Of a DNA stretch of 64,000 nt, positions 46,245-61,296 are shown piece by piece; the first letter of the stretch is position 1; each line of letters opens with the position of its first letter. The stretch lies in the NCBI RefSeq assembly GCF_025822765.1, contig NZ_JACKUK010000016.1, forward strand, positions 2,458 through 66,457, given 5' to 3'. The translations under genes were made by a program, and so were the position numbers. This stretch comes from Mycobacterium barrassiae (GTDB lineage: Bacteria > Actinomycetota > Actinomycetes > Mycobacteriales > Mycobacteriaceae). The notes below the pieces were generated by a model. The model ran no database searches. It had not been told where the DNA came from and worked only from the letters and a program-made list of their open reading frames with translations.

Positions 46245-46559
46245 TCAGTCGCTCGCGGGCAGCGGCTTGGCTTCCTTGAGTGACAGTGGAGTCGTGCCGA
46301 CGGACAGCGTGCCCGCGCCGGCCTTGGTCACCAGCACCTCGGCGCCGGACTCGTCGACGTAGCGCTTGCCCATCGCATTGCCGTCGGAGAACGCCGGATC
46401 GATCGTGGCGTCGGCAGACTTCTCCGGATCTTTCTGACTGTCGAGCGGCACCATCGGAACCCCGCCCGCGCGCAGGTCGTCGAGGCTGTCGCTGCTGCGC
46501 ACGACGATCACCTGGGTGTCGCAGACCTGGCTCTGCAGTCGCGTGCCGTTCTTGATCAT
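46245..46559 (-). CDS. Small conserved protein of unknown function
   Basis: A 104-residue protein without a known domain. It opens MIKNGTRLQSQVCDTQVIVV and has a single cysteine, followed by a conserved-looking DDLRAGGVPMVPL and a lysine-rich C-terminus. An AAGGAG box is well placed before the ATG. It lies 13 bp after the acyl-CoA synthetase gene and 13 bp before the cyclase gene, so it is part of the same minus-strand transcript. A role with the acyl-CoA pathway is inferred only from position. Confidence 0.75.
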   Translation of the reverse strand: MIKNGTRLQSQVCDTQVIVVRSSDSLDDLRAGGVPMVPLDSQKDPEKSADATIDPAFSDGNAMGKRYVDESGAEVLVTKAGAGTLSVGTTPLSLKEAKPLPASD

Positions 46560-46572
46560 GTTCGGCTCCTTG

Positions 46573-48063
46573 TTAATTCGAGGCTGTCAGTTCCTGAACC
46601 AGTTCGCGACGCAGCACCTTGCCGGTCGCGTTGGTCGGTAGTTCGTTCCGGAATACCACGCGGTCGGGAGTACGCGAACCCCGCAGGTGAGCGCGCACGT
46701 GCTCGCGGAGTTCATCGGGGTCAGGTGTGGAGTCGCCGTCGGGCACCACCACCGCGACGATGATCTGGCCCCACTGGGGATCCTCGGGTCCGACGACCGC
46801 GCAGTCGCGCACCAGCGGATGTTCGACGAGGACGTCCTCGATCTCGGCCGGCGCGATGTTCTCGCCGCCGCGGATGATCGTGTCGTCGGAGCGGCCACCG
46901 ATGAACAGGTACCCCTCCTCGTCGAGCATGGCGATGTCCTTGGTGGGGAACCACCCCTCGGCGTCGAGTACGGACCCGATCTCGGCGTAGCGGCCCGACA
47001 CCTGTTCGCCGCGCACGAAAAGCTCACCCGTTTCGCCGGGGCCGAGGACTTCGCCGGCCTCACTGCGGATCTGCACCTCGACCCCGGGGACCGGTTGGCC
47101 GACGGAGCCCAGTCGCCGGATGACCGAATCGTCGGAGGAGGCCAAGGCTGCGCGGTGATCGTCGGGGCCGAGTACGGCGATCGTCGAACTCGTCTCGGTA
47201 AGGCCGTAGGCATTGGCGAAGCCGACATCGGGCAACAGCCCAAGTGCTTTGCGCACCAACGGAAGTGCGACCTTCGACCCGCCGTATGCCAGGTTGCGCA
47301 GAGTGGGCAACTCGACCGGATCTGCTTCCAGCGCCGATACGATGCGATCCAGCATCGTCGGTACGACGGTCGCTGAGGTGACGCCTTCGTCGCGGACCAG
47401 ACGCACCCATTCCGCCGCGTCGAACTGCGGCAGGTACACCATCTTTCGGCCGGCATACAGATTCGACAGCGCGGCGCTGACCCCTGCGATGTGGTACGGC
47501 GGCACACAGATCAACGCCGCATCGGCGGGCTCGGCGCCGTCGAACTCGACCGTCCCGGTGATATAGCTGGTCAGGTTGTTGTGAGTGAGCTCAACGGCTT
47601 TGGGGCGCGATGTGGTGCCCGACGTGAACAGCACCACCCCGACGTCGTCGGGGTCGGCGAACTCGGCGGCCGGTTCGGCGGTGCGGGCCGCCGCGATGAA
47701 CTCGTCAGAGCTGATCACCTGCTTGCCTGCTCCCGCGACGACGTCGAGATACTCCGCGTCCGCGACCACCAGCGGTTGCGGGAGGCGGTCGATCAGTTCG
47801 CGCAGGCCGTCGGCGCTCAGCCGGTAGTTGAGCGGTGTGACGGCTGCGCCCGCGCGCGCCGAGGAGAACAGCAGCAGAGGCAACATCGCGCCGCCGAGTC
47901 CGACGTAGGCCACGTGAGAGGTGCCGGCAGCCGTGATGACACCCGCGCCGCCGTCGGCGAGCTGGCTCAGTTCGGCTGTGGTGAGCCGCATCTCGCCGGA
48001 CACCAGTGCCGTCCGGTCCGGGTTTGTGGAGGCTGCCATCTCCAGCAGCAATGAGATGCTCAT
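46573..48063 (-). CDS. Acyl-CoA synthetase (AMP-forming)
   Basis: A 496-residue FadD-type ligase. The P-loop is GVVLFTSGTTSRPKAVELTH, then VPPYHIAGVSAALSNLYAG, NAYGLTETSSTIAVLGPDD, and the C-terminal GRSDDTIIRGGENIAPAEIE with ATGKVLRRELVQEL bearing the catalytic lysine. It activates a free acid to its CoA thioester; the chain type cannot be read from sequence. Its ATG overlaps the SDR stop (ATGA). Part of the minus-strand arm of the acyl-CoA island. Confidence 0.92.
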   Translation of the reverse strand: MSISLLLEMAASTNPDRTALVSGEMRLTTAELSQLADGGAGVITAAGTSHVAYVGLGGAMLPLLLFSSARAGAAVTPLNYRLSADGLRELIDRLPQPLVVADAEYLDVVAGAGKQVISSDEFIAAARTAEPAAEFADPDDVGVVLFTSGTTSRPKAVELTHNNLTSYITGTVEFDGAEPADAALICVPPYHIAGVSAALSNLYAGRKMVYLPQFDAAEWVRLVRDEGVTSATVVPTMLDRIVSALEADPVELPTLRNLAYGGSKVALPLVRKALGLLPDVGFANAYGLTETSSTIAVLGPDDHRAALASSDDSVIRRLGSVGQPVPGVEVQIRSEAGEVLGPGETGELFVRGEQVSGRYAEIGSVLDAEGWFPTKDIAMLDEEGYLFIGGRSDDTIIRGGENIAPAEIEDVLVEHPLVRDCAVVGPEDPQWGQIIVAVVVPDGDSTPDPDELREHVRAHLRGSRTPDRVVFRNELPTNATGKVLRRELVQELTASN

Positions 48064-48893
48064 GGTTTGTCGACGAAGATATCAAGGATGGGGTCATCGC
48101 CACCGCCGTAGCTGGACAAATCAGTGATACCCGCCGATGCGAGGGCCTCGACATCGATGAAGCATTTTCCGTTGACCTCCGCAGCAGGGCGGGTCAGGAT
48201 CGCCACCGCCGCGTCGCCCATGATCTGGGGATCGCGTGACCGGGCCAGCATCTCCTTGAAGCCGGGCGCGTTGGCGACCGCGGCCGTAGCGATGTACGTC
48301 TCGGGCCAGAGGCAGCTGAATCCGATGTCGGAATCGGCATACTCCGCCGCCCAGCCCAGCGACAGCAACGTCATCCCGTACTTGGACAAGGTGTAGGACG
48401 GATGTGCACCCAGCCAGTGCGGGTTCATGTTCAGCGGGGGCGCCAGCGTGATGACGTGTGCGTTCGGGGACTTCCGCAGGTGGGGGAGCGCCGCCTTGGT
48501 CAGGAGGAACGTCCCGCGCACGTTGATGTCCATCATCAGATCGAACTTCTTGGCGGCCAGTTCCTCGGTCGGTTCGGTGGCGATGGCGCTGGCGTTGTTG
48601 ATGACGATGTCTATGCCGCCGAAGTGCTCGACGGCCGCCTCCACCGCGCGCTGTACATCCTCTTCCTTGCGCACGTCGCCGACGACCGCGACGCCCTTTC
48701 CGCCCGCGGCCTCCACGTCGGCCACGGCGGTGTGCACGGTGCCGGGCAGCTTGGGGTGGGGTTCGGACGTTTTCGCCAGAAGAACGACGTTCGCACCCTG
48801 CTTTGCCGCGCCCAGAGCGATCGCCAGTCCGATGCCGCGGCTGCCGCCAGAGACCACGAGCGTGCGATCGGTGAACGGTGCTGGGCTCGTCAT
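48060..48893 (-). CDS. Short-chain dehydrogenase, HSDL2-like
   Basis: A 277-residue SDR with the NADP-binding GGSRGIGLAIALGAAKQGAN, NNASAIA and the catalytic YxxxK in SYTLSKYGMTLLSL. The nucleophile-side segment ITLAPPLNMNPHW resembles human HSDL2, a peroxisomal hydroxyacyl/steroid-type enzyme. It heads the minus-strand operon with the FadD and shares a 202-bp divergent promoter region with the mutase. A role in oxidising a 3-hydroxyacyl-CoA or related intermediate is probable. Confidence 0.9.
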   Translation of the reverse strand: MTSPAPFTDRTLVVSGGSRGIGLAIALGAAKQGANVVLLAKTSEPHPKLPGTVHTAVADVEAAGGKGVAVVGDVRKEEDVQRAVEAAVEHFGGIDIVINNASAIATEPTEELAAKKFDLMMDINVRGTFLLTKAALPHLRKSPNAHVITLAPPLNMNPHWLGAHPSYTLSKYGMTLLSLGWAAEYADSDIGFSCLWPETYIATAAVANAPGFKEMLARSRDPQIMGDAAVAILTRPAAEVNGKCFIDVEALASAGITDLSSYGGGDDPILDIFVDKP

Positions 48894-49095
48894 GGGCCTC
48901 CTCGGGATGCGCGGTGCTTGGATTCTACTTGGACTCTAAAGGACCGGTAGTGGCGTTCTCATTCTAGGCAAGTGCCATAATCGCTGTTTACTGGGCCTTC
49001 GATCGCGTTCTGGATGCTGCCGCGGGTCCTGCTGACTGCACATTTGCGGCGTGCGGTATTGGCATTCTCATTTTTTGCAAGTACGTTATCGAGTG
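48894..49095. promoter_or_regulatory. Divergent promoter region of the acyl-CoA island with repeated element
   Basis: This 202-bp region between the SDR and the mutase holds two copies of a ~33-bp direct repeat starting TGGCGTTCTCATT (48951) and TGGCATTCTCATT (49060), each followed by GCAAGT. ATTCTCA is the half-site of the palindrome seen at 53542 and 59287, so a shared regulator is likely. There is no ORF I support here. Confidence 0.6.
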
Positions 49096-50672
<1,577 letters not shown>

Positions 50673-50673
<1 letters not shown>

Positions 50674-51098
50674 TGTCTGATTCCGTTACCGCCCAAGGGA
50701 GTCCGGCGCGTGTCCTGGTCGCCAAGCCGGGTCTGGACGGTCACGACCGCGGAGCCAAGATCGTGGCACGCACGCTGCGCGATGCCGGCTTCGAGGTCAT
50801 CTACACCGGCATCCGTCAGCGCATCGAGGACATCGTGTCCATCGCGCTACAGGAAGACGTTGCGCTGGTGGGGCTTTCGATCCTGTCTGGTGCGCACATA
50901 GCGCTGACGAAGCGAACGGTCGACGCGTTGCGTGCCGCCGACGCAGGCGACATCGCCGTCGTGGTCGGCGGGACGATCCCGGAGGCCGACGTACCCAAAC
51001 TCCTGGAATCCGGTGCGGCCGCGGTCTTTCCGACCGGAACACCGCTGGACACGCTCGTCGGCGAGGTCCGCAAGCTGACCGAGAAGGCGGAGAAGTGA
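50673..51098 (+). CDS. Acyl-CoA mutase, B12-binding small subunit
   Basis: A 141-residue Rossmann-type cobalamin domain. The DxHxxG motif is in KPGLDGHDRGAKIV (Asp22, His24, Gly27), the Ser-Xaa-Leu is in VGLSILSGAH and the base-off pocket ends VVVGGTIPEADV and FPTGTPLDTLV. It supplies the B12 for the large subunit as in isobutyryl- and 2-hydroxyisobutyryl-CoA mutases. GTG 50673 shares one base with the large-subunit TAG, so the two are tightly coupled. Confidence 0.95.
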
Positions 51099-51104
51099 CC
51101 CATT

Positions 51105-51166
51105 CGCCGAACGTGCGCTGGCTGCGAAATTCCCGGGCATATTTCGCCGTGAGCGCACATTCGGCG
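51105..51166 (+). repeat. Imperfect hairpin inside the mutase operon
   Basis: Arms CGCCGAACGTGCGCT (51105-51119) and AGCGCACATTCGGCG (51152-51166) pair at 14 of 15 positions and enclose a second stem GCGAAAT/ATTTCGC (51124-51147). The same inner stem is in the terminator at 10890. It sits in the 94 bp between the small subunit and the LLM gene, so it may attenuate or stabilise transcripts. Confidence 0.7.
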
Positions 51167-51192
51167 CTGACGTTACAGAAGGCGGATCCGTC

Positions 51193-52149
51193 ATGAGACT
51201 GGGCGTGATGATCGGGGCCGAGCGCGGGGATATGGCGCGCAAGGTCAAGAAGCTGCTCGAGGACATCGAGTGGGCGGAAGCGGCGGGTATGGACACCGCG
51301 TGGATGCCGCAGGTGCCCAACGATTTCGACTGCCTGACCATGGTCTCCCTGATGGGTTCGCGCACGTCGCGAATCGAGCTGGGCACCGCCGTCGTGCCGC
51401 TGCAGGCGCAGCATCCGATCGCGTTGGCGCGCCAGGCGTTGTCCGTTCATGCGGGCACGGGAGGACGGCTGGCGCTCGGCGTCGGTCCGTCGCACCATTG
51501 GATCGTGCGCGACATGCTCGGCATCCCCTACGAGAAGCCGGCGGCCTACACCCGCGACTATCTCGAGGTGCTCAACGCCGCGATCGCCGGCCCCGGCGAC
51601 GTCGACGTGGAGAACGACACGTTCACCGTGCACAACCCGACCGTCCTCGCCGCCGACCCGCCGATGCCGGTGCTGGTGTCCGCGCTCGGACCCGTGATGC
51701 TGCAGATCGCAGGGGAACTCGCCGACGGCACGGTGCTGTGGATGGCCGACGAGCGCGCAATCGGTGAGCACATCGCGCCGCGCATCACCAAAGCCGCAGA
51801 CAATGCGGGGCGCCCGGCCCCACGGATCGTCGCGGGCATCCCGGTGTGCTTGTGCGCCAACTCAGAGATCGAGGCCGCCAAGGAGCGTGCCAACCGCATC
51901 CTGGCCGAGGCGGAGACGTCGCCGAACTATCAGCGGTTGCTGGATCGCGGCGACGCGCGCGACGTCGGCGACCTGACCGCGGCGGGTGACGAGGAGGCAA
52001 TCCTCGCGCGCTTCCGCCAGTTCGCGGACGCCGGGGTGACCGACCTGTCGGTCCGCCTGCTGCCGATCGGCGAGAACCGCGACGAACTGATCGCCTCGAA
52101 ATACCGCACCCGCGAGGTGATCGCCGAACTCGCCAAGGCCGTGCGGTGA
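51193..52149 (+). CDS. LLM-class flavin/F420-dependent oxidoreductase
   Basis: A 318-residue luciferase-like TIM-barrel enzyme. Opening MRLGVMIGAERGDMARKVKK, DTAWMPQVPNDFDCLTM, SRIELGTAVVPLQAQHP and LALGVGPSHHWIV are typical of mycobacterial F420-dependent members, but FMN use cannot be excluded. It could dehydrogenate, reduce a double bond or act as a monooxygenase on the pathway intermediate. Its TGA overlaps the CoA transferase GTG by four bases. Confidence 0.88.
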   Translation: MRLGVMIGAERGDMARKVKKLLEDIEWAEAAGMDTAWMPQVPNDFDCLTMVSLMGSRTSRIELGTAVVPLQAQHPIALARQALSVHAGTGGRLALGVGPSHHWIVRDMLGIPYEKPAAYTRDYLEVLNAAIAGPGDVDVENDTFTVHNPTVLAADPPMPVLVSALGPVMLQIAGELADGTVLWMADERAIGEHIAPRITKAADNAGRPAPRIVAGIPVCLCANSEIEAAKERANRILAEAETSPNYQRLLDRGDARDVGDLTAAGDEEAILARFRQFADAGVTDLSVRLLPIGENRDELIASKYRTREVIAELAKAVR

Positions 52150-53207
52150 GCCAAGCCGGACCACTGGCGGGCATCCGGATCCTCGAGGTCGGAGTGATGC
52201 TCGCGGGCCCGTACGCGACCATGCTGCTGGCCGATCTCGGTGCCGAGGTCATCAAGATCGAACCGCCTGGTGGCGAGATCTCGCGCCAGGTCAGTGACAG
52301 CTACTTCGCGAGCCTCAACCGCAACAAGCAGAGCATCGTCCTGGATCTGCGCTCAGATGAAGGGCGTCAGCGCCTCGGTGAACTCGTCGCGAATTCGCAT
52401 GCGCTGCTGGTGAATATGAAGCCCTCAGCGATCAAGCGGCTGGGACTCACTTACGAGGCACTGCGACAGTTCAACGACCGGATCGTGTGCGTCGCGCTGA
52501 CCGGGTTCGGGTTGAACGGCGGTGACAATCCCGCGTTCGACTACGTCATCCAGGCGGCGACGGGCGTGGCGGCGATGACGGGCAATCCCGACGATCCGCC
52601 GACCCTGCCGGGCTATTCATCGGCCGACAACTCGACCGGGCTCACGGCGGCGCTCGGCCTGCTCGCGCAGATCGTCTCGGGACGTGGGGGACAGGTCGAT
52701 GTCTCACTGCGGGACGTGATGCTGTCTCAACTGAACTACCGCGCCTCGGCCTATCTGAACGACGGCGTGGCGCCGCAGCGGTACCCCTACGGCGCCCACT
52801 CGTATTACGTTCCGGCGCAGCTCTTCTCGACCGCCGACGGTTTCCTCGCGTTGTTCATCACGCACGACGCATTCTGGAAGTCGTTCGCCGCGGAGGCGCG
52901 GATCGAGGGGTTCACGACGATGGCCGAACGAGCGGCCCGCCGTGAGGAGGTGCTCGCCGTCGTCGCCGCCGCCCTTGCCGCGGACACCGCGAAGCACTGG
53001 GAGGCCAGGTTACGGCCGCTGGGGATTCCGGCCGCCGCCGTGCGAACGCTGCCTGAAGCGCTGGAGGCGACGCCTGAAGTCATCGTCACCGCAGGGGATT
53101 TCCGGTTGGTCGGCAGTCCGATCCACATCGACGGGTATGACCCCGAATACCGTCCGGCGCCGCGCATCGACGAACATGCCGAGCCGACGTCACCTCAGTC
53201 GTCGTAG
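52146..53207 (+). CDS. Class III (CaiB/BaiF) CoA-transferase
   Basis: A 353-residue CoA-transferase of the formyl-CoA transferase/alpha-methylacyl-CoA racemase family. The catalytic Asp132 is in NPAFDYVIQAATGVAAMTG; the CoA-binding opening LAGIRILEVGVMLAGPYATM and KIEPPGGEISRQ are present. It could move CoA from one acid to another or racemise a 2-methylacyl-CoA. In a mutase operon a CoA transfer onto a dicarboxylic acid, or an epimerase step, are both reasonable. The 3' end overlaps the convergent ferredoxin gene by 13 bp. Confidence 0.9.
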   Translation: MSQAGPLAGIRILEVGVMLAGPYATMLLADLGAEVIKIEPPGGEISRQVSDSYFASLNRNKQSIVLDLRSDEGRQRLGELVANSHALLVNMKPSAIKRLGLTYEALRQFNDRIVCVALTGFGLNGGDNPAFDYVIQAATGVAAMTGNPDDPPTLPGYSSADNSTGLTAALGLLAQIVSGRGGQVDVSLRDVMLSQLNYRASAYLNDGVAPQRYPYGAHSYYVPAQLFSTADGFLALFITHDAFWKSFAAEARIEGFTTMAERAARREEVLAVVAAALAADTAKHWEARLRPLGIPAAAVRTLPEALEATPEVIVTAGDFRLVGSPIHIDGYDPEYRPAPRIDEHAEPTSPQSS

Positions 53208-53524
53208 GTGAAGCTGATCGAATCCGTGTCCGGAACCGCTTGGCAGGTCAGGATGTATCCCTCTTCGACCTCGTCCTCGTCCAGCGCGTCGTTGACACGC
53301 ATGGTTGCTTTGCCTTCGACGAGCTTGCCCATGCAGGTGCCGCAGTTGCCGGCTTCGCACGAGAACGGGGGAGCGAGGCCAGCGCGCCGTGCGCTTTCCA
53401 GGAGAGTCTCGTTGGGGACCCGCCGCACCGATACCGTCTTTCGGTCGAGCACGATGGTCACTTGCCCGTCGTCGGCGGGTGAGCTCGGCGCCGGTTCTGC
53501 CGTCACAAGCCTCTCTCCTGGCAC
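53195..53524 (-). CDS. 2Fe-2S plant-type ferredoxin
   Basis: A 109-residue ferredoxin. Cluster ligands are Cys56, Cys61, Cys64 and Cys94 in PFSCEAGNCGTCMGKLV and YILTCQA, the CX4CX2CX29C pattern. No reductase or oxygenase domain is fused, in contrast to KshB-like proteins, so it needs an outside reductase and an acceptor such as a P450 or oxygenase, neither of which is in the window. It is transcribed on the minus strand from a region with the GAGAAT palindrome. Confidence 0.93.
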   Translation of the reverse strand: MPGERLVTAEPAPSSPADDGQVTIVLDRKTVSVRRVPNETLLESARRAGLAPPFSCEAGNCGTCMGKLVEGKATMRVNDALDEDEVEEGYILTCQAVPDTDSISFTYDD

Positions 53525-53541
53525 ATTGGTTCTGTCAATTA

Positions 53542-53579
53542 GAGAATACCATTCTCGTTAAATGATACGCTATTCTCAA
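53542..53579. promoter_or_regulatory. GAGAAT-N3-ATTCTC operator between ferredoxin and FadD
   Basis: GAGAATACCATTCTC (53542-53556) is a perfect 6-bp inverted repeat with a three-base centre. A second half-site, ATTCTCA (53572-53578), follows. It lies 18 bp upstream of the ferredoxin start and about 65 bp before the fadD start. The same symmetrical sequence with another centre is at 59287. A TetR-type dimer is the likely reader. Confidence 0.75.
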
Positions 53580-53621
53580 ATTCGCGTCATGACGGACGGC
53601 AGCGGCGAGTGAGGACAGGCT

Positions 53622-55019
53622 GTGGGTGAGGCGATCGCGCTCGCTTTCGAGGAGCGTGAGTACACGCTGTCCGAACTCGACGCGCTGGCCGGCGGCATGG
53701 CCGGCACCCTCGAGCAACACGGCGTCGGGCAAGGCGACCGGGTCGCGCTGATGTCGTCGAATCGGCCCGAATTCGTCATCGCGCTGCGGGCCGTCTGGCA
53801 GCTGGGCGCATCGGCGGTCCTGCTCAGCCCGGCGTGGAAGCGCACCGAGGTCGAGCATGCCCTCATCCTGACCAGGCCGACATATGCGGTCGGTGACCAT
53901 CCGGTGCTCGCCGAGTTGATGTCGATGCTGTCGTTGGATCAGCCGATCACGCCCGGCCATCGGGCCGTCGAACCGCAGGCGCCCGAGTCCGATGCGCTCT
54001 TCGTCTTCAGTTCGGGCACCACCGGTATGCCCAAGGCGGTGCGCCATACGCACGGCTCGTTCGCGGTGGCGGTGCGGCACTGGCGCGATGCGCTGGGCCT
54101 GTCCGCGGCGGATCGTATGCAGATCATGACGCCGCCCTCGCACATCCTCGGGCTGCTCAACATCGCGATGGCGCTCGACACGGGCACCTGGATCCGGTTG
54201 CACAGCCGCTTCGACATCGACCAGATGCTGCGGCACATCGAGTCCGACCGGATCACCATCGAGATGGCCGTGGCACCGATCGCCTTGGCGCTGGCAGCAC
54301 ATCCCAACCTCGAGAAGTACGACCTGTCCTCACTGCGGTATGTGATGTGGTGTGCCACCCCGGTCACCGAGAGCGTCGCCGACGTCGTCACGCGCCGGAC
54401 GGGGGTGAACTGGGTGACCGCATACGGCGCCAGTGAGCTGCCGGTGATCTCGTGCAATGAGTTGACCGGCGCCCGCCTCGACACCGTGGGGCGTGCCGTC
54501 CCGGGTGTCGACCTGCGAGTGGTGTCGCTGGAGACCGGCCAGGTGGTGGCGCCGGGCGAACCCGGGGAGATCCAGGTGCGGTCCGACACCGTGATGGCCG
54601 GGTATCTGCCGGATTCGGCCACCCCCGAAGCCTTTTCGGACGGCTGGTATAGGACAGGCGACGTCGGCTACCTAGACGCCGAGGGCTGGTTGCGGATCAC
54701 CGACCGCTCAAAGGAAATGATCAAGGTGCGCGGCTTTCAGGTCGCACCTGCCGAGATCGAAGCCGTGCTGCACAGCCATCCGGCGGTCGAGGATTGCGCT
54801 GTGTTCGGCGTACCCGATCCGGCGAACGGCGAGGCGATCGTCGCTGCGGTCAAGACGTCCGCCTCCGTCGACGCCCAGGAGCTTGCTGCCCTCATCGGCG
54901 ATCGGCTCGCCTCGTACAAACGACCCAGCCAAATCACGTTCGTGGACGAAATACCTCGTCTGCCATCAGGAAAGGTATTGCGTCGAGTGTTGAAGGAGCG
55001 TCTGTGGACGTCCGTCTGA
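53622..55019 (+). CDS. Acyl-CoA synthetase (AMP-forming), second
   Basis: A 465-residue FadD-type ligase, shorter than usual at the N-terminus. The P-loop is FVFSSGTTGMPKAVRHTHGS, and YGASELPVISC, GWYRTGDVGYLDAEGWL and DRSKEMIKVRGFQVAPAEIE follow, with the C-terminal Lys in RLPSGKVLRRVLKERL. It starts a plus-strand run with two acyl-CoA dehydrogenases and a crotonase. The FadD of this arm and the one at 46.5 kb could act on different acids. GTG 53622. Confidence 0.92.
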   Translation: MGEAIALAFEEREYTLSELDALAGGMAGTLEQHGVGQGDRVALMSSNRPEFVIALRAVWQLGASAVLLSPAWKRTEVEHALILTRPTYAVGDHPVLAELMSMLSLDQPITPGHRAVEPQAPESDALFVFSSGTTGMPKAVRHTHGSFAVAVRHWRDALGLSAADRMQIMTPPSHILGLLNIAMALDTGTWIRLHSRFDIDQMLRHIESDRITIEMAVAPIALALAAHPNLEKYDLSSLRYVMWCATPVTESVADVVTRRTGVNWVTAYGASELPVISCNELTGARLDTVGRAVPGVDLRVVSLETGQVVAPGEPGEIQVRSDTVMAGYLPDSATPEAFSDGWYRTGDVGYLDAEGWLRITDRSKEMIKVRGFQVAPAEIEAVLHSHPAVEDCAVFGVPDPANGEAIVAAVKTSASVDAQELAALIGDRLASYKRPSQITFVDEIPRLPSGKVLRRVLKERLWTSV

Positions 55020-55819
55020 CAAGTGAACAACAACAGTTGCGCGACGCCGCGGCCAAGCTCGCCGACGATCTCGGCCCTGGCTCGGTCGCCGACCTCGACG
55101 ACGAGAGTCGGCGCGTTCGGCTGGAGAAGGCCGTCGAGGACACGGGTTTTCGCACGCTGCGCTCCGATGGCGCATCCGGTGTCGAGGTGGCCATCGTCGC
55201 CGAGGAGTTCGCACGCGGCCTGGTCGACGTGCCGTTCATCGGACCGGTGCTTGCCGACGACCTGCGGCGTGCACTGGGGCACGAGCCGTCGGCCGCCCCG
55301 GCGGATGATGAAGCCGTCGACCTGACGAAAAGCCTTGCCGGAGTGATCGAATCGCCCCTCGAACTCGGCGAGTTGACGGAGGAGGACGCCGGCCGGTGGC
55401 GTGCACTCGCACTCACCGTGACCTGTGCCGACCTGGTGGGCGCCGCGCGCGGCGCGCATACGCTGGCGTGCGAGTACGCCAAGGTCCGCGAACAGTACGG
55501 CGCGACCATCGGCTCCTATCAGGCGATCGGCCACCTGCTGGCCGAGAGCCTTGCTCTCATCGAGGGATCGATCAGTGTGCTGCGCCACGCCGCGTGGGCG
55601 GTCGATGAACTGCCGAGCGCGGAGGCCATCGAGGTGGCGCGGGTGGCCAAGATCTACTGTGCGCGTGCGGCGCTGACCGTGTGCGAAACTTCGATCCAGG
55701 TGCACGGCGGTATCGGCAACACCTGGGAGTGCCTTGCCCACGTCTACCTACGGCGGGTGCTGTCCGCCACCGAGACGTGGCCCGTCAAGCTGGAGGAGCT
55801 GACCATTGGATTTCCGTGA
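55004..55819 (+). CDS. Acyl-CoA dehydrogenase, small/partner subunit
   Basis: A 271-residue protein with the N- and C-terminal halves of an acyl-CoA dehydrogenase, but shortened through the middle beta domain. The C-terminal YAKVREQYGATIGSYQAIGH, and TSIQVHGGIGNTWECLAHVYLR are typical. Its length is clearly below the usual ~380, which fits one partner of the alpha2beta2 dehydrogenases used for bulky CoA substrates in mycobacteria (FadE28-FadE29 type). GTG 55004 lies within the end of fadD (16-bp overlap), with AAGGAG upstream. Confidence 0.87.
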   Translation: MDVRLTSEQQQLRDAAAKLADDLGPGSVADLDDESRRVRLEKAVEDTGFRTLRSDGASGVEVAIVAEEFARGLVDVPFIGPVLADDLRRALGHEPSAAPADDEAVDLTKSLAGVIESPLELGELTEEDAGRWRALALTVTCADLVGAARGAHTLACEYAKVREQYGATIGSYQAIGHLLAESLALIEGSISVLRHAAWAVDELPSAEAIEVARVAKIYCARAALTVCETSIQVHGGIGNTWECLAHVYLRRVLSATETWPVKLEELTIGFP

Positions 55820-56903
55820 TTCGCCGGAGGAAGCCGCGTTCCGGGAACGGCTGCGCGCCTGGCTGATCGAACAGAAGGGCAAGTTCCCGACGTCGGGCGA
55901 CGAATACTGGGCCGCCCAAGGCGAGTGGCACCAGGCGCTGTATCAGGCCGGCTTTTTCGGTACGTCGTGGCCGAAGGAATACGGTGGCCAGGATCTGCCT
56001 CCGGTGTACGACGTCATCGTCGACGAGGAGATCGCCAAGGCGGGGGCCCCCGCGCGCCCGAGCCTGGGGTATCTGGTCGTGGCGTTTGGCCATCATGGAA
56101 GCAAGGAACTGCAGCAGCGATTCCTGCCCGGCATGATCAACGGCACCGAGCGGTGGTGCCAGGGCTTCTCGGAGCCCGGCGCCGGTTCGGATCTCGCCTC
56201 GCTGACCACGACGGCCACCCGCGACGGCGGGGATTCCGGGGAGTACGTGATCCACGGTCACAAGATCTGGACGAGCTACTCCGATGTCGCCGACTGGTGT
56301 CTGTTGCTGGCGAGGACTGACAAGGATGTGCCGAAGCATCGCGGGATCTCGGCGTTCGTCGTTTCGATGCATCAGCCCGGTGTTGAGCAGCGGCCTCTGA
56401 AGATGATCAGCGGCGTCACCAAGGAATTCGGCCAGGTGACCTTCGACGGCGCGCGTGTCCCGGCCGAGAATCTGGTCGGCAGCCTCGGGGAGGGCTGGAA
56501 GCTCGCGATGACGGTCGTCAGCCATGAGCGCGAACCGTCGACGCTTGGCTTCTCCGCGCGCTATGGGAAACTGGTGCGCCAGTTGGCATCCCGGGTGGAC
56601 GGCACGCCGCCCGAAGAGTTGGCATGGGCGTGGGTGCAGACCGAAATGCTCAGGTTGCACGTGCGCCGACGGCTCTCCGAACAACTCGACGGCATGACGC
56701 ACGGGCCGCAGGGCTCGCTGGACAAGCTGTTGATGACCTGGGTCGAGCAGTCCGTCGGCCATGCGGCGCTCGCTACTGTGGGCACCAGTGATCCCGAACT
56801 GTTCGGCGCCTACATGTACAGCCGTGCGCAGAGCGTGATGGGCGGAACGTCACAGATTCAGAAGAACATCATCGCTTCGCGGATTCTCGGATTAGGAGTC
56901 TAG
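55806..56903 (+). CDS. Acyl-CoA dehydrogenase, large partner subunit
   Basis: A 365-residue flavoprotein with GFSEPGAGSDLASLTTTATR in the substrate loop, the FAD-binding IHGHKIWTSYSDVADWC and the end RAQSVMGGTSQIQKNIIASRILGLGV. It begins at TTG 55806 inside the end of the previous gene (14-bp overlap). Together with the short partner it should make a heterotetramer that introduces an alpha,beta double bond into a branched or cyclic acyl-CoA. Confidence 0.9.
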   Translation: MDFRDSPEEAAFRERLRAWLIEQKGKFPTSGDEYWAAQGEWHQALYQAGFFGTSWPKEYGGQDLPPVYDVIVDEEIAKAGAPARPSLGYLVVAFGHHGSKELQQRFLPGMINGTERWCQGFSEPGAGSDLASLTTTATRDGGDSGEYVIHGHKIWTSYSDVADWCLLLARTDKDVPKHRGISAFVVSMHQPGVEQRPLKMISGVTKEFGQVTFDGARVPAENLVGSLGEGWKLAMTVVSHEREPSTLGFSARYGKLVRQLASRVDGTPPEELAWAWVQTEMLRLHVRRRLSEQLDGMTHGPQGSLDKLLMTWVEQSVGHAALATVGTSDPELFGAYMYSRAQSVMGGTSQIQKNIIASRILGLGV

Positions 56904-57671
56904 ATGTACGGAATGCCGGACGAGATCGACGTCAAGGCCGACGGCGGCCTGCGGATCATCACGCTCAACCGCCCGGATGAGCTCAATGCGGTCAACGATC
57001 CGTTGCACGTGGGATTGGCCAAGATCTGGGAAGAGCTCAATGAGGACACCTCCGCCCGGGCCGCGGTGATCACCGGTGCGGGACGGGCCTTTTCGGCCGG
57101 CGGCGACTTCAACTACCTCGACGAGTTGCGCAACGACGAAGCGCTGCGTCAGAAGACGATCAAGCATGGGCGCGACCTCGTCATCGGTATGGTGCGATGC
57201 CGGATCCCGGTGATCGCCGCCGTCAACGGTCCAGCCGTCGGGCTGGGCTGCAGCCTGGCGGCCCTTTCGGACATCGTGTACATGGCCGAGAACGCATTCT
57301 TCGCCGATCCGCATGTGTCGATCGGGTTGGTGGCCGCCGACGGTGGGCCCTTGGTGTGGCCGTCGCAGATAAGTCTGTTGCACGCCAAGGAATTCGCGTT
57401 CACCGGCATCCGGATCAAGGCCGCGCGAGCGCTCGAACTGGGAATGGCCAACCACGTCGTTGCCGATCCGCTGGCCGAGGCGATCGCGTGCGCGACGAAG
57501 ATCATGGAGTTGCCGCAGCAGGCGCTCGAGAGCACCAAGCGGCTGATGAACCTGCAACTCGAGAAGTCGGTGATGGCGTCACTGGACTACGCGAACCTCT
57601 CCGAATACGTGTCGTTCGGGACTGCCGACTTCAACAAGATCGTCGACGGGCTGATCGCGAAGGACAAGTAG
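56904..57671 (+). CDS. Crotonase-fold protein lacking both catalytic glutamates
   Basis: A 255-residue crotonase with the oxyanion loop ITGAGRAFSAGGDFNYLD and GPAVGLGCSLAALSDIVYM. Rat crotonase uses Glu144 and Glu164; the matching positions here are Ser117 (GLGCSLA) and His137 (FADPHVSIG), while Asp146 appears in GLVAADGG. Therefore hydration of an enoyl-CoA by the standard route is unlikely, and other crotonase chemistry (isomerase, decarboxylase, C-C hydrolase) should be considered. The ATG directly follows the dehydrogenase stop, so it is co-translated. Confidence 0.85.
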   Translation: MYGMPDEIDVKADGGLRIITLNRPDELNAVNDPLHVGLAKIWEELNEDTSARAAVITGAGRAFSAGGDFNYLDELRNDEALRQKTIKHGRDLVIGMVRCRIPVIAAVNGPAVGLGCSLAALSDIVYMAENAFFADPHVSIGLVAADGGPLVWPSQISLLHAKEFAFTGIRIKAARALELGMANHVVADPLAEAIACATKIMELPQQALESTKRLMNLQLEKSVMASLDYANLSEYVSFGTADFNKIVDGLIAKDK

Positions 57672-57680
57672 CGGATCCCG

Positions 57681-57741
57681 CGAGAAGACGCGAACACACC
57701 CAATTTGGGGGCATTTTAGGGGGATTTCGCGTCTGCTCGCC
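57681..57741. terminator. Hairpin between convergent crotonase and SDR genes
   Basis: AGACGCGAA (57687-57695) pairs with TTCGCGTCT (57727-57735), and GCGAG (57681-57685) with CTCGC (57737-57741) outside. The outer arm is the same AGACGCGAA word as in the hairpin at 10874. It lies in the 71 bp between two convergent genes, as expected for a bidirectional terminator. Confidence 0.68.
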
Positions 57742-57742
57742 G

Positions 57743-58489
57743 TTAAAAGGTGAGCTCTTCGGAACGCTGGATGGTGCCGGTGACACCGCCTGCGTCCTGC
57801 TGGGCCAGCCGCACCGCGGCGTCGGCCATCGCCTCCGGTGGCTCGACCATCTCGGGCGGGATCTCCATGCCGCCGCCTCCGGCCTGCCATCCCTCGGTGA
57901 GGACGACCCGCGACGGGCTCAGGCAGTTCACGGCGATGTTGTCGGCCTTGAGGTCGGCGGCCAAGCCGAGGTACAGGCGCTCGACCCCGGCCTTGGACAC
58001 CCAGTAGGCGTTGGCGCCGTGCTCGATCATCCCGACGCCGGTCGTGGTGATCGCCACCAGCGAGCCGCCGCCGCGCGCTTTCACATGCGGTATGACGGCC
58101 TTCGTCACCAGGAACACCCCGGTGAGGTTGACGTTGAGGCACAACTGCCACCGCTTCAGCGGCGTCGACTCGATCGGGCCGAGCCCCAGCACCCCGGCGT
58201 TGGCGATCAGGATGTCGATGCCGCCGAACTCCGAAACCGTTGTAGCGACGGCATTCTCTACAGACTCCTCGCTGGAGACGTCGCAGTGCACCGGCAGGGC
58301 TCGGCCGCCGGCTGAGGCGATGCGCTCGGCGACGCCATGAATCGTGCCGGGTACCTTGCCCTCCTGCTCCGAACGCGCCGCGACGGCCACCGCCGCACCC
58401 TCGCGGGCCAGCGCCGTGGCGATCGTCGCTCCGATACCGCGGCTGGCTCCGGCGACGAAGGCCACCTTGCCTGCCAGCGATCCGGTCAC
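57743..58489 (-). CDS. Short-chain dehydrogenase
   Basis: A 248-residue SDR with AGASRGIGATIATALAREGA, NAGVLGLGPIE and the catalytic YxxxK in NAYWVSKAGVERL. The catalytic Ser region reads VAITTTGVG, with Thr in place of Ser. Its ATG overlaps the previous gene's stop (ATGA) so the two SDR genes are one unit. It should oxidise a hydroxy group in the same acyl-CoA pathway. Substrate unknown. Confidence 0.9.
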   Translation of the reverse strand: MTGSLAGKVAFVAGASRGIGATIATALAREGAAVAVAARSEQEGKVPGTIHGVAERIASAGGRALPVHCDVSSEESVENAVATTVSEFGGIDILIANAGVLGLGPIESTPLKRWQLCLNVNLTGVFLVTKAVIPHVKARGGGSLVAITTTGVGMIEHGANAYWVSKAGVERLYLGLAADLKADNIAVNCLSPSRVVLTEGWQAGGGGMEIPPEMVEPPEAMADAAVRLAQQDAGGVTGTIQRSEELTF

Positions 58490-59250
58490 TTCGGCGGGAA
58501 CCGTAATGCTCCGTCGAGGCGAATGATCTCGCCGTTGAGGTAGTCGTTCTCGACGATGCTCTGGGCCAGTTGGGCGTATTCCGTCGACCGGCCCATGCGC
58601 TTGGGGAATGGCACCTGCGGACCCCAGTACTGCTCGAGTTGGTCGGCCGCCTTGCCGTACGCAGGTGTGTTGATGGTGCCTGGCGCAATGGTGACGACGC
58701 GGATACCCAACGGCGAGAGGTCGCGTGCCGCAACGAGTGTCATGCCGAGCACGCCACCCTTGGCTGCCGAGTAGGGGAGTTGGCCGATCTGCCCCTCAAA
58801 GCCGGCGATCGAGGCGGTGTTGATGATGACGCCCCTGCCGCCCTCGTCGAGCGGCTCCGACTTGGCGATCTCGGCCGCCGACAGGCGCATCACGTTGAAG
58901 ACTGCGGTCAGATAGAACTCGATCGTCTTCTTGAAGCCATCGAGATCGAGCGGCGACCCGTCCTTACCGATGAGCCTGCCGCCACTGGCGGGGCCGCCGT
59001 GGGTGTCGACCGAGATGCGCAGCGGGGCGAGGGAGGCGGCTTCGGCGATGGCCGCATTGACCGACTCCTCGGACGTGGCGTCGGTGCGGACATAGCGCAC
59101 ACCGAGTTCACCCTCCAACTCCTTGCCCTTGTCGTCGGCCAGGTCGGCGACCACGACCTTGGCGCCAGCACCGTGCAGGCGCCGGACCGTCGCCTCGCCA
59201 AGGCCACCTGCGCCTCCGACAACAATCGCCGAGCTACCTGCGATTTGCAT
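58486..59250 (-). CDS. 3-hydroxyacyl-CoA dehydrogenase type-2-like SDR
   Basis: A 254-residue SDR like human HSD17B10: the nucleotide motif GGAGGLGEATVRRL, the segment GVIINTASIAGFEGQIGQLP with Ser, and YSAAKGGVLGMTL with Tyr and Lys. Such enzymes oxidise 2-methyl-3-hydroxyacyl-CoA. That would fit a branched acyl-CoA pathway. Start ATG 59250 is 37 bp from the GAGAAT palindrome at 59287, which is divergent to the meaB gene. Confidence 0.9.
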   Translation of the reverse strand: MQIAGSSAIVVGGAGGLGEATVRRLHGAGAKVVVADLADDKGKELEGELGVRYVRTDATSEESVNAAIAEAASLAPLRISVDTHGGPASGGRLIGKDGSPLDLDGFKKTIEFYLTAVFNVMRLSAAEIAKSEPLDEGGRGVIINTASIAGFEGQIGQLPYSAAKGGVLGMTLVAARDLSPLGIRVVTIAPGTINTPAYGKAADQLEQYWGPQVPFPKRMGRSTEYAQLAQSIVENDYLNGEIIRLDGALRFPPK

Positions 59251-59286
59251 GTGATTCCCCTTCTTGCAACTGGCACTCTCGGACTG

Positions 59287-59303
59287 TGAGAATATCATTC
59301 TCA
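59287..59303. promoter_or_regulatory. Perfect TGAGAAT-ATC-ATTCTCA operator
   Basis: TGAGAATATCATTCTCA has 7-bp arms around ATC and no mismatch. It lies between the divergent SDR (59250) and meaB (59346) genes. It is the best copy of the symmetrical word seen at 53542, and its ATTCTCA half also occurs twice in the 48.9-49.1 kb divergent region. Confidence 0.78.
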
Positions 59304-59345
59304 TGTGTTCCGAGACAGAGATGCCTGCTCCGTAAGCTGTACGGA

Positions 59346-60215
59346 ATGACCATCGACGAGCTCATCGAGGCGGCGCGCAGTGGGTCCACCCGCGCGGCCG
59401 GCCGACTGCTGAGCCTGGTCGAAAGTCCGAGGCGCGGCGAGGTGCTCGATTCGCTCGGCCCGGTCCAGGCCCCACGCGTGATCGGGGTGACCGGCCCGCC
59501 CGGAGCGGGGAAGTCGACGACGGTCGGGGCACTGGTCAGCGCGTACCGCGAACGCCAGATGCGCGTGGCGGTACTCGCGGTTGATCCGTCGTCGCCCTAC
59601 AGCGGGGGAGCGCTGCTGGGCGACCGGATCCGAATGGCCGCGCACATCAACGACTCCGACGTGCTCATTCGATCGGTGGCGGCGCGCGGCCACCTCGGTG
59701 GGTTGGCCGCCGCGGTGCCGGCCGCCATCCGGCTGCTCGCCGCGTTGTCCTACGACCTGGTGGTGTTGGAGACGGTCGGTGTCGGCCAGTCGGAGATCGA
59801 GATCGCCGCCATCGCGGACCCGACGATCGTCATCCTCAATCCCGGTGCGGGCGACGCGGTTCAGGCGGCCAAAGCCGGCCTGCTCGAGGTCGCCGACATC
59901 GTGGTCGTCAACAAGGCCGATCGCGAGGGGGCCGACCAGACGGTGCGCGACCTGAAGGCGGAGACCAAGGCGCCGATCCTGAAACTCGTTGCCGCAGAAG
60001 GGCAAGGCATACCCGAGTTGGTCGACGCCATCGAGGTCCACCATCGCACCGACAGCCCGGAACGCCGAATTGCGCGCGCACGCGCGCAGATCCTGTCGCT
60101 GGCGCAGACGCGATTGCGGAGTCATCCCGAGCTGGATCGCCTCGCAGGACAGGTTGCCGAAGGTGGGTCGGATCCCTATGCCGCGACCGAGCAGTTGTTC
60201 ACCGTCGACCCTTAG
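59346..60215 (+). CDS. meaB: MeaB/ArgK G-protein chaperone of acyl-CoA mutase
   Basis: A 289-residue GTPase that gates cofactor entry and protects B12-dependent mutases. Walker A is GVTGPPGAGKSTTVGALV, followed by VDPSSPYSGGALLGDRIRM, LETVGVGQSEIEIA and VVNKADREGADQ, all family-specific. It is in its own plus-strand transcript 8.7 kb from the mutase, but the shared palindrome in front of it supports co-regulation with the mutase. ATG 59346. Confidence 0.95.
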   Translation: MTIDELIEAARSGSTRAAGRLLSLVESPRRGEVLDSLGPVQAPRVIGVTGPPGAGKSTTVGALVSAYRERQMRVAVLAVDPSSPYSGGALLGDRIRMAAHINDSDVLIRSVAARGHLGGLAAAVPAAIRLLAALSYDLVVLETVGVGQSEIEIAAIADPTIVILNPGAGDAVQAAKAGLLEVADIVVVNKADREGADQTVRDLKAETKAPILKLVAAEGQGIPELVDAIEVHHRTDSPERRIARARAQILSLAQTRLRSHPELDRLAGQVAEGGSDPYAATEQLFTVDP

Positions 60216-60676
60216 CCGATTGCGGGGACGTCGGTCGGGAACGGCTGCGTCGTCACAGTCCCGTCGGTGTTCCGCATCAGCGCGTCGTAACGACGGTGCA
60301 GGATCAACCACGTGTCGCCGTCGCGGACATACTCGTCGTGATACACGCCCGAGATGATCAAGTTGACGCCCTCGGCGCGTTGGCCGGTCTCCTGAACGAA
60401 CCAACGGCCTACGGCGCGTTTGGAATTGAAATTGTCGACGACGACCACCCCGGACAGCATCGCCTGCAGAAAGACGTTCCAGCCGTCGAGCATCGAGGTG
60501 AAGAACGCGACCATCGCATCGCGTCCTTCGAAACGACCCAGCTCCGGTGCGTACCACGTGCCCTCGGCTGTGAACGTGCCCGCGACGCCGGCCGGGTCAC
60601 GACGCGAGGCGGCATCGGCGTACCGGTTCACCAGGTTGCGAATCGCTTGATCATCCGTATTGTGCGGCAACATCAT
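60212..60676 (-). CDS. NTF2/SnoaL-like protein
   Basis: A 154-residue cone-shaped NTF2-fold protein. IRNLVNRYADAASRRDPAGV and GTFTAEGTWYAP open it like many SnoaL-like and limonene-epoxide/steroid isomerase relatives; DTWLILHRRYDAL closes the fold. Function unassigned; possibilities are an isomerase or hydratase for a catabolite. Its stop overlaps the meaB stop in convergent orientation, and its start overlaps the TetR stop. Confidence 0.85.
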   Translation of the reverse strand: MMLPHNTDDQAIRNLVNRYADAASRRDPAGVAGTFTAEGTWYAPELGRFEGRDAMVAFFTSMLDGWNVFLQAMLSGVVVVDNFNSKRAVGRWFVQETGQRAEGVNLIISGVYHDEYVRDGDTWLILHRRYDALMRNTDGTVTTQPFPTDVPAIG

Positions 60677-61257
60677 TCGGGTAGACCCAGCATGCGACTG
60701 GTCATCTGCTTCAACTGAGTGCGCAGGGTCTCACCGTCGACGTCGGCGAGCAGTGGGTGCATGACGGCGACGCTGATCGCACTCGAGAGCATCGCCGCAT
60801 GCAGACGCGCCTCGACGCCGGCCTCCGTCCCGAGCAGCGCGGCGTACAGTCGCTCGATGAACCGCTGGAACGGTTGATACTCGGCCTGCAGCCGGATGAT
60901 CACCGGATCGAACATCGGCACGCGGAACGCGTCGCGCCGGTCGATGGCCTGCTCGACCATCCGATCGAGCAGCACGGCGCGTGCTCTCACCGGATGTCCT
61001 TCGGCCTCGGCCGCTTCCAGCACATCTTCGAGCTTGCTCATCTCGCGCTCGGTGATGGCGATGACGATCTCTTCCTTGGTCTTGAACTGGCGGTACACCG
61101 CCGCCTTCGTCACGCCCATCGCGTCGGCGATCATCTGCAGCGACGTCCCGCTGACACCGTGCTCGGCGATCAGCTTCAACGCCGCATCCAGGACGCGGGT
61201 CTGCGCGGCGGTACGGGTGATCTCACTGAACTTGAGGTCATCCTGTGTGGATGTCAC
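60673..61257 (-). CDS. TetR-family transcriptional regulator
   Basis: A 194-residue TetR protein. Its helix-turn-helix is in SLQMIADAMGVTKAAVYRQF. GTG 61257 (VTSTQDDLKF) is preferred, since the longer TTG start at 61278 would read through an inverted repeat that looks like its own operator. The NTF2-like gene follows with a 4-bp overlap, so both are one unit. The operator word is repeated before the gene at 63454. Confidence 0.88.
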   Translation of the reverse strand: MTSTQDDLKFSEITRTAAQTRVLDAALKLIAEHGVSGTSLQMIADAMGVTKAAVYRQFKTKEEIVIAITEREMSKLEDVLEAAEAEGHPVRARAVLLDRMVEQAIDRRDAFRVPMFDPVIIRLQAEYQPFQRFIERLYAALLGTEAGVEARLHAAMLSSAISVAVMHPLLADVDGETLRTQLKQMTSRMLGLPE

Positions 61258-61264
61258 GGGTCGA

Positions 61265-61296
61265 GAGTAGCCGAGCAAGTTGCCGATCGGCTACTC
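61265..61296. promoter_or_regulatory. Nested palindrome, probable TetR autoregulatory operator
   Basis: GAGTAGCCGA (61265-61274) and TCGGCTACTC (61287-61296) are perfect inverted arms. Inside lies AGTTGCCGATCGGCTAC, which shares 17 bases with the copy at 63385. It stands immediately upstream of the TetR start at 61257. Confidence 0.72.

Follow-up and report, generated by a model that had tools for sequence, protein, structure and literature searches.

A split acyl-CoA mutase and its conserved gene cluster

We analysed a 64,000-nucleotide stretch of DNA from Mycobacterium barrassiae (hereafter the window), which corresponds to positions 2458-66457 of contig C16 (NZ_JACKUK010000016.1) of a 5.9-Mb genome; coordinates are those of the window unless C16, C11 or C34 is stated. 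At 46245..60215 it holds a cluster centred on mutL and mutS, the two genes of a split acyl-CoA mutase dependent on adenosylcobalamin (AdoCbl). They are accompanied by an LLM-class oxidoreductase, a class III CoA-transferase (CoAT), a stand-alone 2Fe-2S ferredoxin (fdx), two acyl-CoA ligases (lig1 and lig2), two acyl-CoA dehydrogenases (acd1 and acd2), a crotonase (ech), three short-chain dehydrogenases/reductases (SDR1, SDR2 and SDR3) and a MeaB-type GTPase chaperone. Judging from sequence and gene context, we consider it on balance rather probable that this is a new subclass of split AdoCbl mutase acting on a bulky dicarboxylic acyl-CoA, together with the GTPase chaperone and a class III CoA-transferase of its own, within an operator-defined catabolic gene set. 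An earlier note on this DNA had listed the same genes, and our calling of open reading frames (ORFs), combined with Pfam and NCBIfam scans, found a family match for each at its position; the starts of mutL, acd1 and MeaB are revised here.

The large subunit, mutL (49096..50673, + strand), matches TIGR00641 (655 bits over 21-537) and PF01642. Its ORF opens at 49051 and the start is probably the ATG at 49096 (MSEPVQTPSG), because the sequence just 5' of it is strongly conserved in the 80-locus alignment (see below). The small subunit, mutS (50640..51098, +; start uncertain), is a B12-binding protein with the DxHxxG motif (TIGR00640, 145 bits; PF02310, 92.5 bits), and the two together place the enzyme in the methylmalonyl-CoA mutase superfamily. 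They are followed on the same strand by the LLM-class gene (51193..52149) of the F420_MSMEG_4879 family (TIGR03564, 359 bits against a cut-off of 234) and by CoAT (52146..53207; PF02515, 282 bits). The MeaB-type GTPase (59346..60215, +) lies just over the TIGR00750 cut-off (242 vs 240.75 bits) and also matches PF03308 (236 bits); its ORF opens at 59286 and, from the sequence, its start is probably near 59346.

The closest named loci to that of the window mutase are from Mycolicibacterium (96% for M. tusciae). Counts for mycobacterial loci rest on the best 80 of 408 relatives, with 70 loci having enough flank on the right and 76 used for the left. Downstream of mutL, mutS, LLM and CoAT are present in 70/70 loci, fdx and lig2 in 66/70, acd1, acd2 and ech in 62/70, SDR3 in 59/70, SDR2 in 46/70 and meaB in 42/70, the last count being affected by the position of meaB near the end of the fetched flank. 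On the left, lig1, SDR1 and a gene for a 104-aa protein recur in 59, 61 and 63 of the 76 loci, respectively. This conservation of gene order is far beyond chance. Orthologues of mutL with at least 76% identity occur in 46/394 genomes of the class (25/26 in the same genus), and orthologues of at least 84% in 7/296 genomes of the phylum, where the next best matches are at most 55%. One orthologue, at G419:C27:199516-201147, has an in-frame TAG.

The mutase belongs to a clade of its own

The closest PDB entry to mutL is HcmA (4r3u) of 2-hydroxyisobutyryl-CoA mutase (HCM), and methylmalonyl-CoA mutase (MCM) is among the better PDB matches. We compared active-site positions using MCM residue numbers, which come from the printed P. 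shermanii alignment and carry an offset of one. In MCM, Tyr89 and Arg207 clamp the free carboxylate. Tyr89 (in RQY), Arg207, Gln197 and His244 are all kept in mutL. Tyr243 is replaced by Ala, and the SGYH of MCM reads AGAH in the clade. GAH was found in 25/25 printed clade rows (21 actinobacterial and 4 proteobacterial) and GYH in 27/27 other rows; in this table a few genes are represented by two rows, and clade members of at least 88% identity are, apart from two, unprinted. Further mutases read GYH (two rows from family f4 and four more from plasmids), SYH (two rows of ethylmalonyl-CoA mutase, ECM, encoded beside crotonyl-CoA carboxylase/reductase, CCR), GQH (a second Diaphorobacter mutase, 37%) and GPA (a MutA subunit, 26%). 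The His/Gln pair in the MCM motif RTHSQ is also lost in the clade (RFG, then C or V, then V), His328 becoming Gly and Gln330 becoming Val.

In a 48-row tree, a single clade with an SH-aLRT of 100 unites 20 actinobacterial with 4 proteobacterial members, and the MCM, ECM, HCM-type and isobutyryl-CoA mutase (ICM)-type rows lie outside it. The tree was computed by a quick method and carries a long-branch warning, which includes a join of the four proteobacterial rows with non-clade rows, so their placement is provisional.

These comparisons led us to reject each of the named mutases. MCM proper (MutAB, ScpA) has the Tyr89/Arg207 pair in common with mutL and is 43-44% identical to it, but differs at Tyr243, His328 and Gln330, and mutL does not cluster with MutB in the tree. 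ECM (MeaA, encoded next to ccr) likewise keeps the dicarboxylate-binding residues; however, it is only ~41% identical, the CSYHLQEAG motif differs, its rows fall outside the mutL clade, and no CCR was found over the cut-off in the window genome. HcmAB resembles the window system in its split large and small subunits and MeaB-type chaperone, but has RQI, Gln for Arg207 and GYH where the window clade has RQY, Arg and GAH; it also lies outside the clade and has other partners. For the ICM type, the Phe/Gln pair at positions 89 and 207, which we take to be defining, is absent from mutL, and the clade is again separate. The claim of the earlier note that a B12-mutase catabolic system distinct from propionate metabolism is encoded here stands, the genome having a separate MutAB on contig C14 and the window mutase its own clade. 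By residues and tree, mutL and mutS look like an AGAH subclass of split AdoCbl acyl-CoA mutases that is seemingly undescribed; we found nothing in the open-access literature describing the clade, or the operator and regulon discussed below, by title or abstract.

A five-gene core is shared across phyla

Seven proteobacterial plasmid records hold a protein at least 55% identical to mutL, and we looked at four of these (Paraburkholderia, Sulfitobacter, Marinobacter and Diaphorobacter). All four plasmids have one row comprising a crotonase, mutL, mutS, a class III CoA-transferase and a MeaB-type GTPase, and by this gene content the cross-phylum core is five genes. The plasmid GTPases, annotated as GTP-binding or hypothetical, are 42-46% identical to the window MeaB. 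There is no ligase in these five-gene rows. An IclR-type regulator (one annotated KdgR) adjoins three of the four modules, and TRAP/tripartite-transporter genes then follow in three plasmids; in Marinobacter they are more distant, beyond transposase genes.

The window CoAT is 48-56% identical to the four proteobacterial module members, as against at most 33% for its other C16 paralogues, and its sequence marks it as their clear orthologue. The PF02515 match and an Asp in the DNSTG/DNSAG region, present in all five aligned members and presumably catalytic, assign it to the class III (Frc) fold. The crotonase behaves differently. The best match to the module crotonase in the window genome (7e-37; next 7e-27) is not ech, which we had considered as the core partner and reject, but a gene at C16:197011-197730, ~145 kb from mutL, which the proteobacterial crotonase matches better. 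The best match in genomes G306, G023, G378 and G511 is the crotonase of the mutL cluster itself; in G074 it is a candidate (5e-35) again ~145 kb from mutL, whose family membership is provisional, and two genomes without mutL have matches of 4e-30 and 2e-23. In the module crotonase the Glu144-type residue is retained, and position 164 has Gln instead of Glu (usual crotonase numbering).

A palindromic operator recurs at the cluster

The fdx/lig2 and SDR3/meaB intergenic regions have a perfect palindrome, GAGAATNNNATTCTC, in common, with copies at 53542..53556 (GAGAATACCATTCTC) and 59288..59302 (GAGAATATCATTCTC). With up to two mismatches allowed, the window alone has three matches vs 0.86 expected, which is little excess; the strength of the operator rests on its perfect copies and their conservation. 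At the same tolerance, all 73 mycobacterial loci with fdx have the operator at fdx/lig2, and all 61 with SDR3 have it upstream of that gene. The 80 loci contain 64 more matches (40 outside the tracked genes, 14 in LLM and 10 in or near others), and mono-nucleotide shuffles of these loci gave nine in total. Two perfect copies are present in 57 loci, one in 14 and none in nine.

Across the whole genome there are seven perfect operators, at C16 positions 55999, 61745, 70870, 103337, 111200, 163622 and 199405, hence all on one contig within 143 kb, vs ~0.05 expected from composition and none in a reversed control. Four further sites have one mismatch (C16:148101, C16:202188, C11:26602 and C34:61259). 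The nine C16 sites lie 0-185 bases before a candidate start codon; at 61745, 103337, 111200 and 163622 the longest reading frame would overlap the site and a later start was assumed. A perfect operator occurs in 39 of 44 tested genomes with mutL vs 1 of 29 without it (Fisher p 5e-14, uncorrected for kinship). The palindrome thus lies before genes, is clustered and co-occurs with mutL, the pattern of an operator-defined regulon, and on these grounds the operator-bearing units are likely to be co-regulated in the cell.

The region before mutL has its own conserved features. A stretch at 49060..49095 (+), conserved in the 80-locus alignment, carries one operator half-site (ATTCTC), and within the 290 bases around the start of mutL the closest match to the operator has three mismatches in 75/80 loci vs 3/80 shuffles, this match not always being the ATTCTC copy. 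The SDR1-mutL interval (48894-49095) also has two TTCTCATTTT..GCAAGT-like elements ~100 bases apart in several loci, the one nearer to mutL being strongly conserved in the same alignment.

The operator-linked gene set extends beyond the window

Families f4, f86 and f87 provide eight loci (L114_115, L117, L119-L122, L128 and L131) in which an amidohydrolase (C5), a FadD3-family-like ligase (C7), mutL, mutS, LLM and CoAT are consecutive on one strand. Each of these rows has an operator 20-70 bases before C5, which is perfect in six loci and has a single mismatch in the other two. All eight loci also have the module crotonase (C3) close by, and six of them a second ligase (C8). As far as their contigs extend, the f87 stretches continue with a reductase, lig2, acd1, acd2 and ech. 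In the window genome, C3, C8, C5 and C7 lie ~145 kb away from mutL at C16:197.0-202.1 kb; a perfect operator separates C8 from C5, and the C7 ligase scores 762 bits against the FadD3-family cut-off of 657. The earlier note had taken the 14 kb for a complete toolkit; this does not hold, as the module crotonase, two ligases and amidohydrolase that adjoin mutL in other families lie ~145 kb along the contig. The 14 kb instead forms one extremity of a regulon-like group of genes that extends over ~145 kb.

The remaining operators on C16 precede genes of several catabolic types. That at 70870 lies between an IclR gene with a KstD-like flavoprotein (below curated cut-offs) and, divergently, an alpha/beta hydrolase, MhpA and MhpB, the last two both over cut-off (C16:68400-74351). 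An acyl-CoA dehydrogenase and a crotonase follow the operator at 103337. The one at 111200 has on one side a carboxymuconolactone-decarboxylase-type gene and a Rieske oxygenase and on the other an amidohydrolase, acyl-CoA dehydrogenase, CoA-transferase, crotonase, thiolase and acyl-CoA dehydrogenase. At 163622, two amidohydrolases are divergent from a frame that has no known family and precedes an acyl-CoA dehydrogenase. The one-mismatch sites at C16:148101 and C16:202188 precede a P450 and a 313-aa protein without a Pfam match, respectively; we dropped an assignment of the latter gene (at 202210) as mce-associated, Pfam giving no family. Between the operator sites lie orthologues of two f87 neighbours, an aldehyde dehydrogenase (C17) and a CoA-transferase (C9), and behind them, at C16:180116-189790, an importer row of the Mce type with two MlaE permeases and Mce/MlaD (MlaD/Mce4_CUP1) proteins.

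The amidohydrolase behind the 111200 operator matches DitZ (PDB 8uyr) at 1.4e-114. The best PDB match of C5 is an uncharacterised protein (2e-81), followed by PtmU3 (1e-20) and DitZ (3e-7). PtmU3 acts on a diterpenoid-CoA. The operator set resembles the dit resin-acid cluster in having a DitZ-like amidohydrolase, a Rieske oxygenase and ligases, but the word "mutase" is absent from the main text of PMC10710418 and PMC13063091; the DitZ-like protein is the one dit counterpart noted here, no search with other dit genes having been made. The dit genes serve resin-acid degradation, as stated in passages of PMC10710418.

Proposed function and alternatives

The mutase substrate is likely to be a dicarboxylic acyl-CoA, because the Tyr89/Arg207 carboxylate pair is kept, and it should be bulkier than methylmalonyl-CoA, because Ala in place of Tyr243, with the other pocket changes, would admit a larger-than-methyl substituent. 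The earlier note had proposed a branched, cyclic or dicarboxylic acid as the substrate of the pathway: the active-site residues favour its dicarboxylic part. The window crotonase, which that note had listed, is not a member of the core module. Overall, that earlier interpretation was partly supported, with its extent understated.

We propose the following scheme, though it is doubtful that we have the exact reaction and its direction right. The class III transferase would put CoA on, or move it within, a substituted malonate or succinate derived from ring opening or import. The mutase would then shift CO-SCoA between adjacent carbons, interconverting a substituted malonyl-CoA and a substituted succinyl-CoA, such that a quaternary or branched carbon would no longer block beta-oxidation; the Ala pocket would accommodate the bulky group and MeaB would load and protect the cofactor. 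The partner crotonase, which keeps a single hydratase Glu of the usual two and may be a decarboxylase, would complete the removal together with acyl-CoA dehydrogenases. In mycobacteria, the module would act within the ~145-kb operator set alongside the FadD3-family ligase, Rieske oxygenase, amidohydrolase, thiolase and acyl-CoA dehydrogenase genes.

As for the compound degraded by the regulon, a terpenoid-type hydrophobic molecule is plausible but tentative. We lean by inference to a terpenoid over a sterol side chain because of the DitZ-like amidohydrolase behind an operator, and have lowered our confidence a notch because the gene at 202210 is not shown to be mce-related. A more specific version, which we regard as speculative and rather improbable, is that the AGAH mutase overcomes quaternary carbons during terpenoid degradation. 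Ring opening would leave a 2-alkyl-2-methylmalonyl-type unit, in which one carbon bears a methyl, a carboxyl and the CO-SCoA group; the mutase would abstract hydrogen from the methyl group and move CO-SCoA onto it, yielding an alkylsuccinyl-CoA amenable to beta-oxidation. If true, the reaction would be new for B12 enzymes and would offer biology a general way past gem-substituted carbons. The B12 acyl-CoA mutases are known for only a small number of substrate classes, and with each addition a pathway was opened up. The diagnostic residue change, the partner set found in two phyla and the operator tie to a large catabolic set in mycobacteria together make the question directly testable for this clade. 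How bacteria pass the quaternary carbons of terpenoids is an open question in the field; a 2026 paper (PMC13063091) describes the downstream metabolites of resin-acid metabolism as not yet elucidated.

Several observations weigh against the proposal or parts of it. The terpenoid assignment is based on the types of gene present and on the names of the PDB entries that the amidohydrolases match, the best match of C5 being uncharacterised, and we found no biochemical data for any clade member. No product name in the four proteobacterial stretches points to terpenoids, and because of this the core acid may be small and general; the module crotonase, moreover, is 36-42% identical across phyla and 25% to ScpB. 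The operator has exceptions as well. A ninth stretch, the f4 locus L118, has mutL, mutS and LLM and lacks C3, C8, C5, C7 and the operator; five mutL-bearing genomes of families f83 and f82 have no perfect site, though three of these exceptions have a two-mismatch copy between the crotonase and mutL (L123, L125 and L126). Co-regulation, whose absence would refute the idea according to the earlier note, is supported by the common operator across units but not at the mycobacterial mutL promoter, where there is no full operator in the 80 loci, only the half-site. There is likewise no operator copy in the Mce row (C16:180.1-189.8 kb), because of which we count it as a neighbour of the regulon, membership not being implied. 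Neither regulator candidate is general. The IclR at C16:70040 has a match of at least 78% in 10/10 tested same-genus genomes with mutL and none in one same-genus genome without it; however, it was rejected as a general regulator, with 34% in G050, 31-42% or no match in f4, f86 and f87 genomes, and matches in f4 genomes lacking mutL too. The TetR encoded in the window is weak as a universal regulator: of ten same-genus genomes with mutL, six have it at 60% or more, one at 43% and three not at all.

The most serious rival, which we judge unlikely, is an Scp (Sbm)-like cycle, in which CoA-transferase, mutase, a crotonase-fold decarboxylase and MeaB/ArgK together convert a substituted succinate into a shorter acid by decarboxylation while the transferase recycles CoA. 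The scpA-argK-scpB-scpC set of E. coli, with its mutase, MeaB GTPase, crotonase and CoA-transferase, comprises the same four enzyme types and is the closest working analogy; the module crotonase and ScpB both keep the Glu at the first catalytic position without the second, and the ligase-free proteobacterial rows would fit such a cycle. However, no similarity of the class III CoA-transferase to ScpC is found at E 1, the crotonase is only 21-25% identical to ScpB, the Scp mutase is single-chain, and the actinobacterial module is surrounded by ligases and acyl-CoA dehydrogenases.

Clearly less probable is an aerobic analogue of the anaerobic auxin pathway of Aromatoleum aromaticum, in which a phenylsuccinyl-CoA/benzylmalonyl-CoA-type mutase would handle an aryl- or alkylsuccinate. 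It is the closest analogy in terms of reaction: in the iaa system, as described in passages of PMC8360864, a CoA-transferase (IaaL), a mutase acting on substituted succinyl/malonyl-CoA (IaaGH) and an acyl-CoA dehydrogenase (IaaF) act in sequence. According to passages of PMC11659651, IaaL belongs to family III, and IaaL and Mct provide precedents for inter- or intramolecular CoA transfer on dicarboxylates. The enlarged pocket would fit a benzyl group. Furthermore, acd2 appears to have Gly at the usual base position, where benzylmalonyl-CoA dehydrogenase has Gly or Ala; but long-chain and isovaleryl-CoA dehydrogenases likewise lack that Glu (both points from passages of PMC11659651). The likeness is one of pathway description, and the A. 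aromaticum pathway is anaerobic.

A diverged MCM or ECM serving propionate or acetate assimilation would account for the retained Tyr89 and Arg207 and for MCM being among the better PDB matches, but is very improbable given the separate MutAB, the lack of a CCR over the cut-off, the Tyr kept in the ECM rows and the separate clade. Least credible of all is a mutase of the 2-hydroxyisobutyryl-, isobutyryl- or pivalyl-CoA type for short branched monocarboxylic acids, which has in its favour HcmA as best PDB match, the split subunits and a statement in part of PMC13188929 that Mycolicibacterium can have such an enzyme, but which is opposed by Tyr/Arg in place of Ile/Gln (HCM) or Phe/Gln (ICM type) and by a clade separate from the rows compared, among which there was no pivalyl-CoA mutase.

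Other genes of the cluster

Left of mutL and divergent from it lies SDR1 (48060..48893, -; NF006133, 408 bits against a cut-off of 250), followed on the same strand by lig1 (46573..48063; AMP-forming, PF00501, 207 bits) and the gene for the 104-aa protein (46245..46559), which accompanies lig1 and SDR1 and has no Pfam or NCBIfam match at E 0.001. In the f87 stretches seen, lig1 has matches of only 30-32% (51% in G023), and the homologues of lig2 (53622..55019, +; AMP-forming, PF00501, 210 bits) in f87 loci are 66-69% identical. The ferredoxin fdx (53195..53524, -) matches PF00111; its matches in L114_115, L117 and L121 are proteins of 332-349 aa with the 2Fe-2S domain C-terminal. A full-length reductase with FAD, NAD and Fer2 domains lies at C16:143730-144743 and is 47% identical to two of these.

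The acyl-CoA dehydrogenases are a small IpdE2/PimD-like partner, acd1 (55004..55819, +; NF050027, 75 bits; PF00441), whose ORF opens at 54794 and whose start is probably near 55004, and a large PimC-like partner, acd2 (55806..56903, +; TIGR03204, 177 bits, below cut-off). The crotonase ech (56904..57671, +) matches PDB 3rrv at 5e-117; neither hydratase Glu is kept in the alignment, where Ser and His stand instead. Its His...Asp spacing is, we presume, reminiscent of 6-oxocamphor hydrolase (1szo is among its PDB matches), and ech could be a C-C hydrolase. SDR2 (57743..58489, -; PF00106) is an optional member, and SDR3 (58486..59250, -; PF00106) has an ORF opening at 59304 and, as read from the sequence, a probable start near 59250, with operator-like copies upstream across loci. 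Downstream of MeaB, the TetR gene (60673-61278) has its own, different palindromes upstream.

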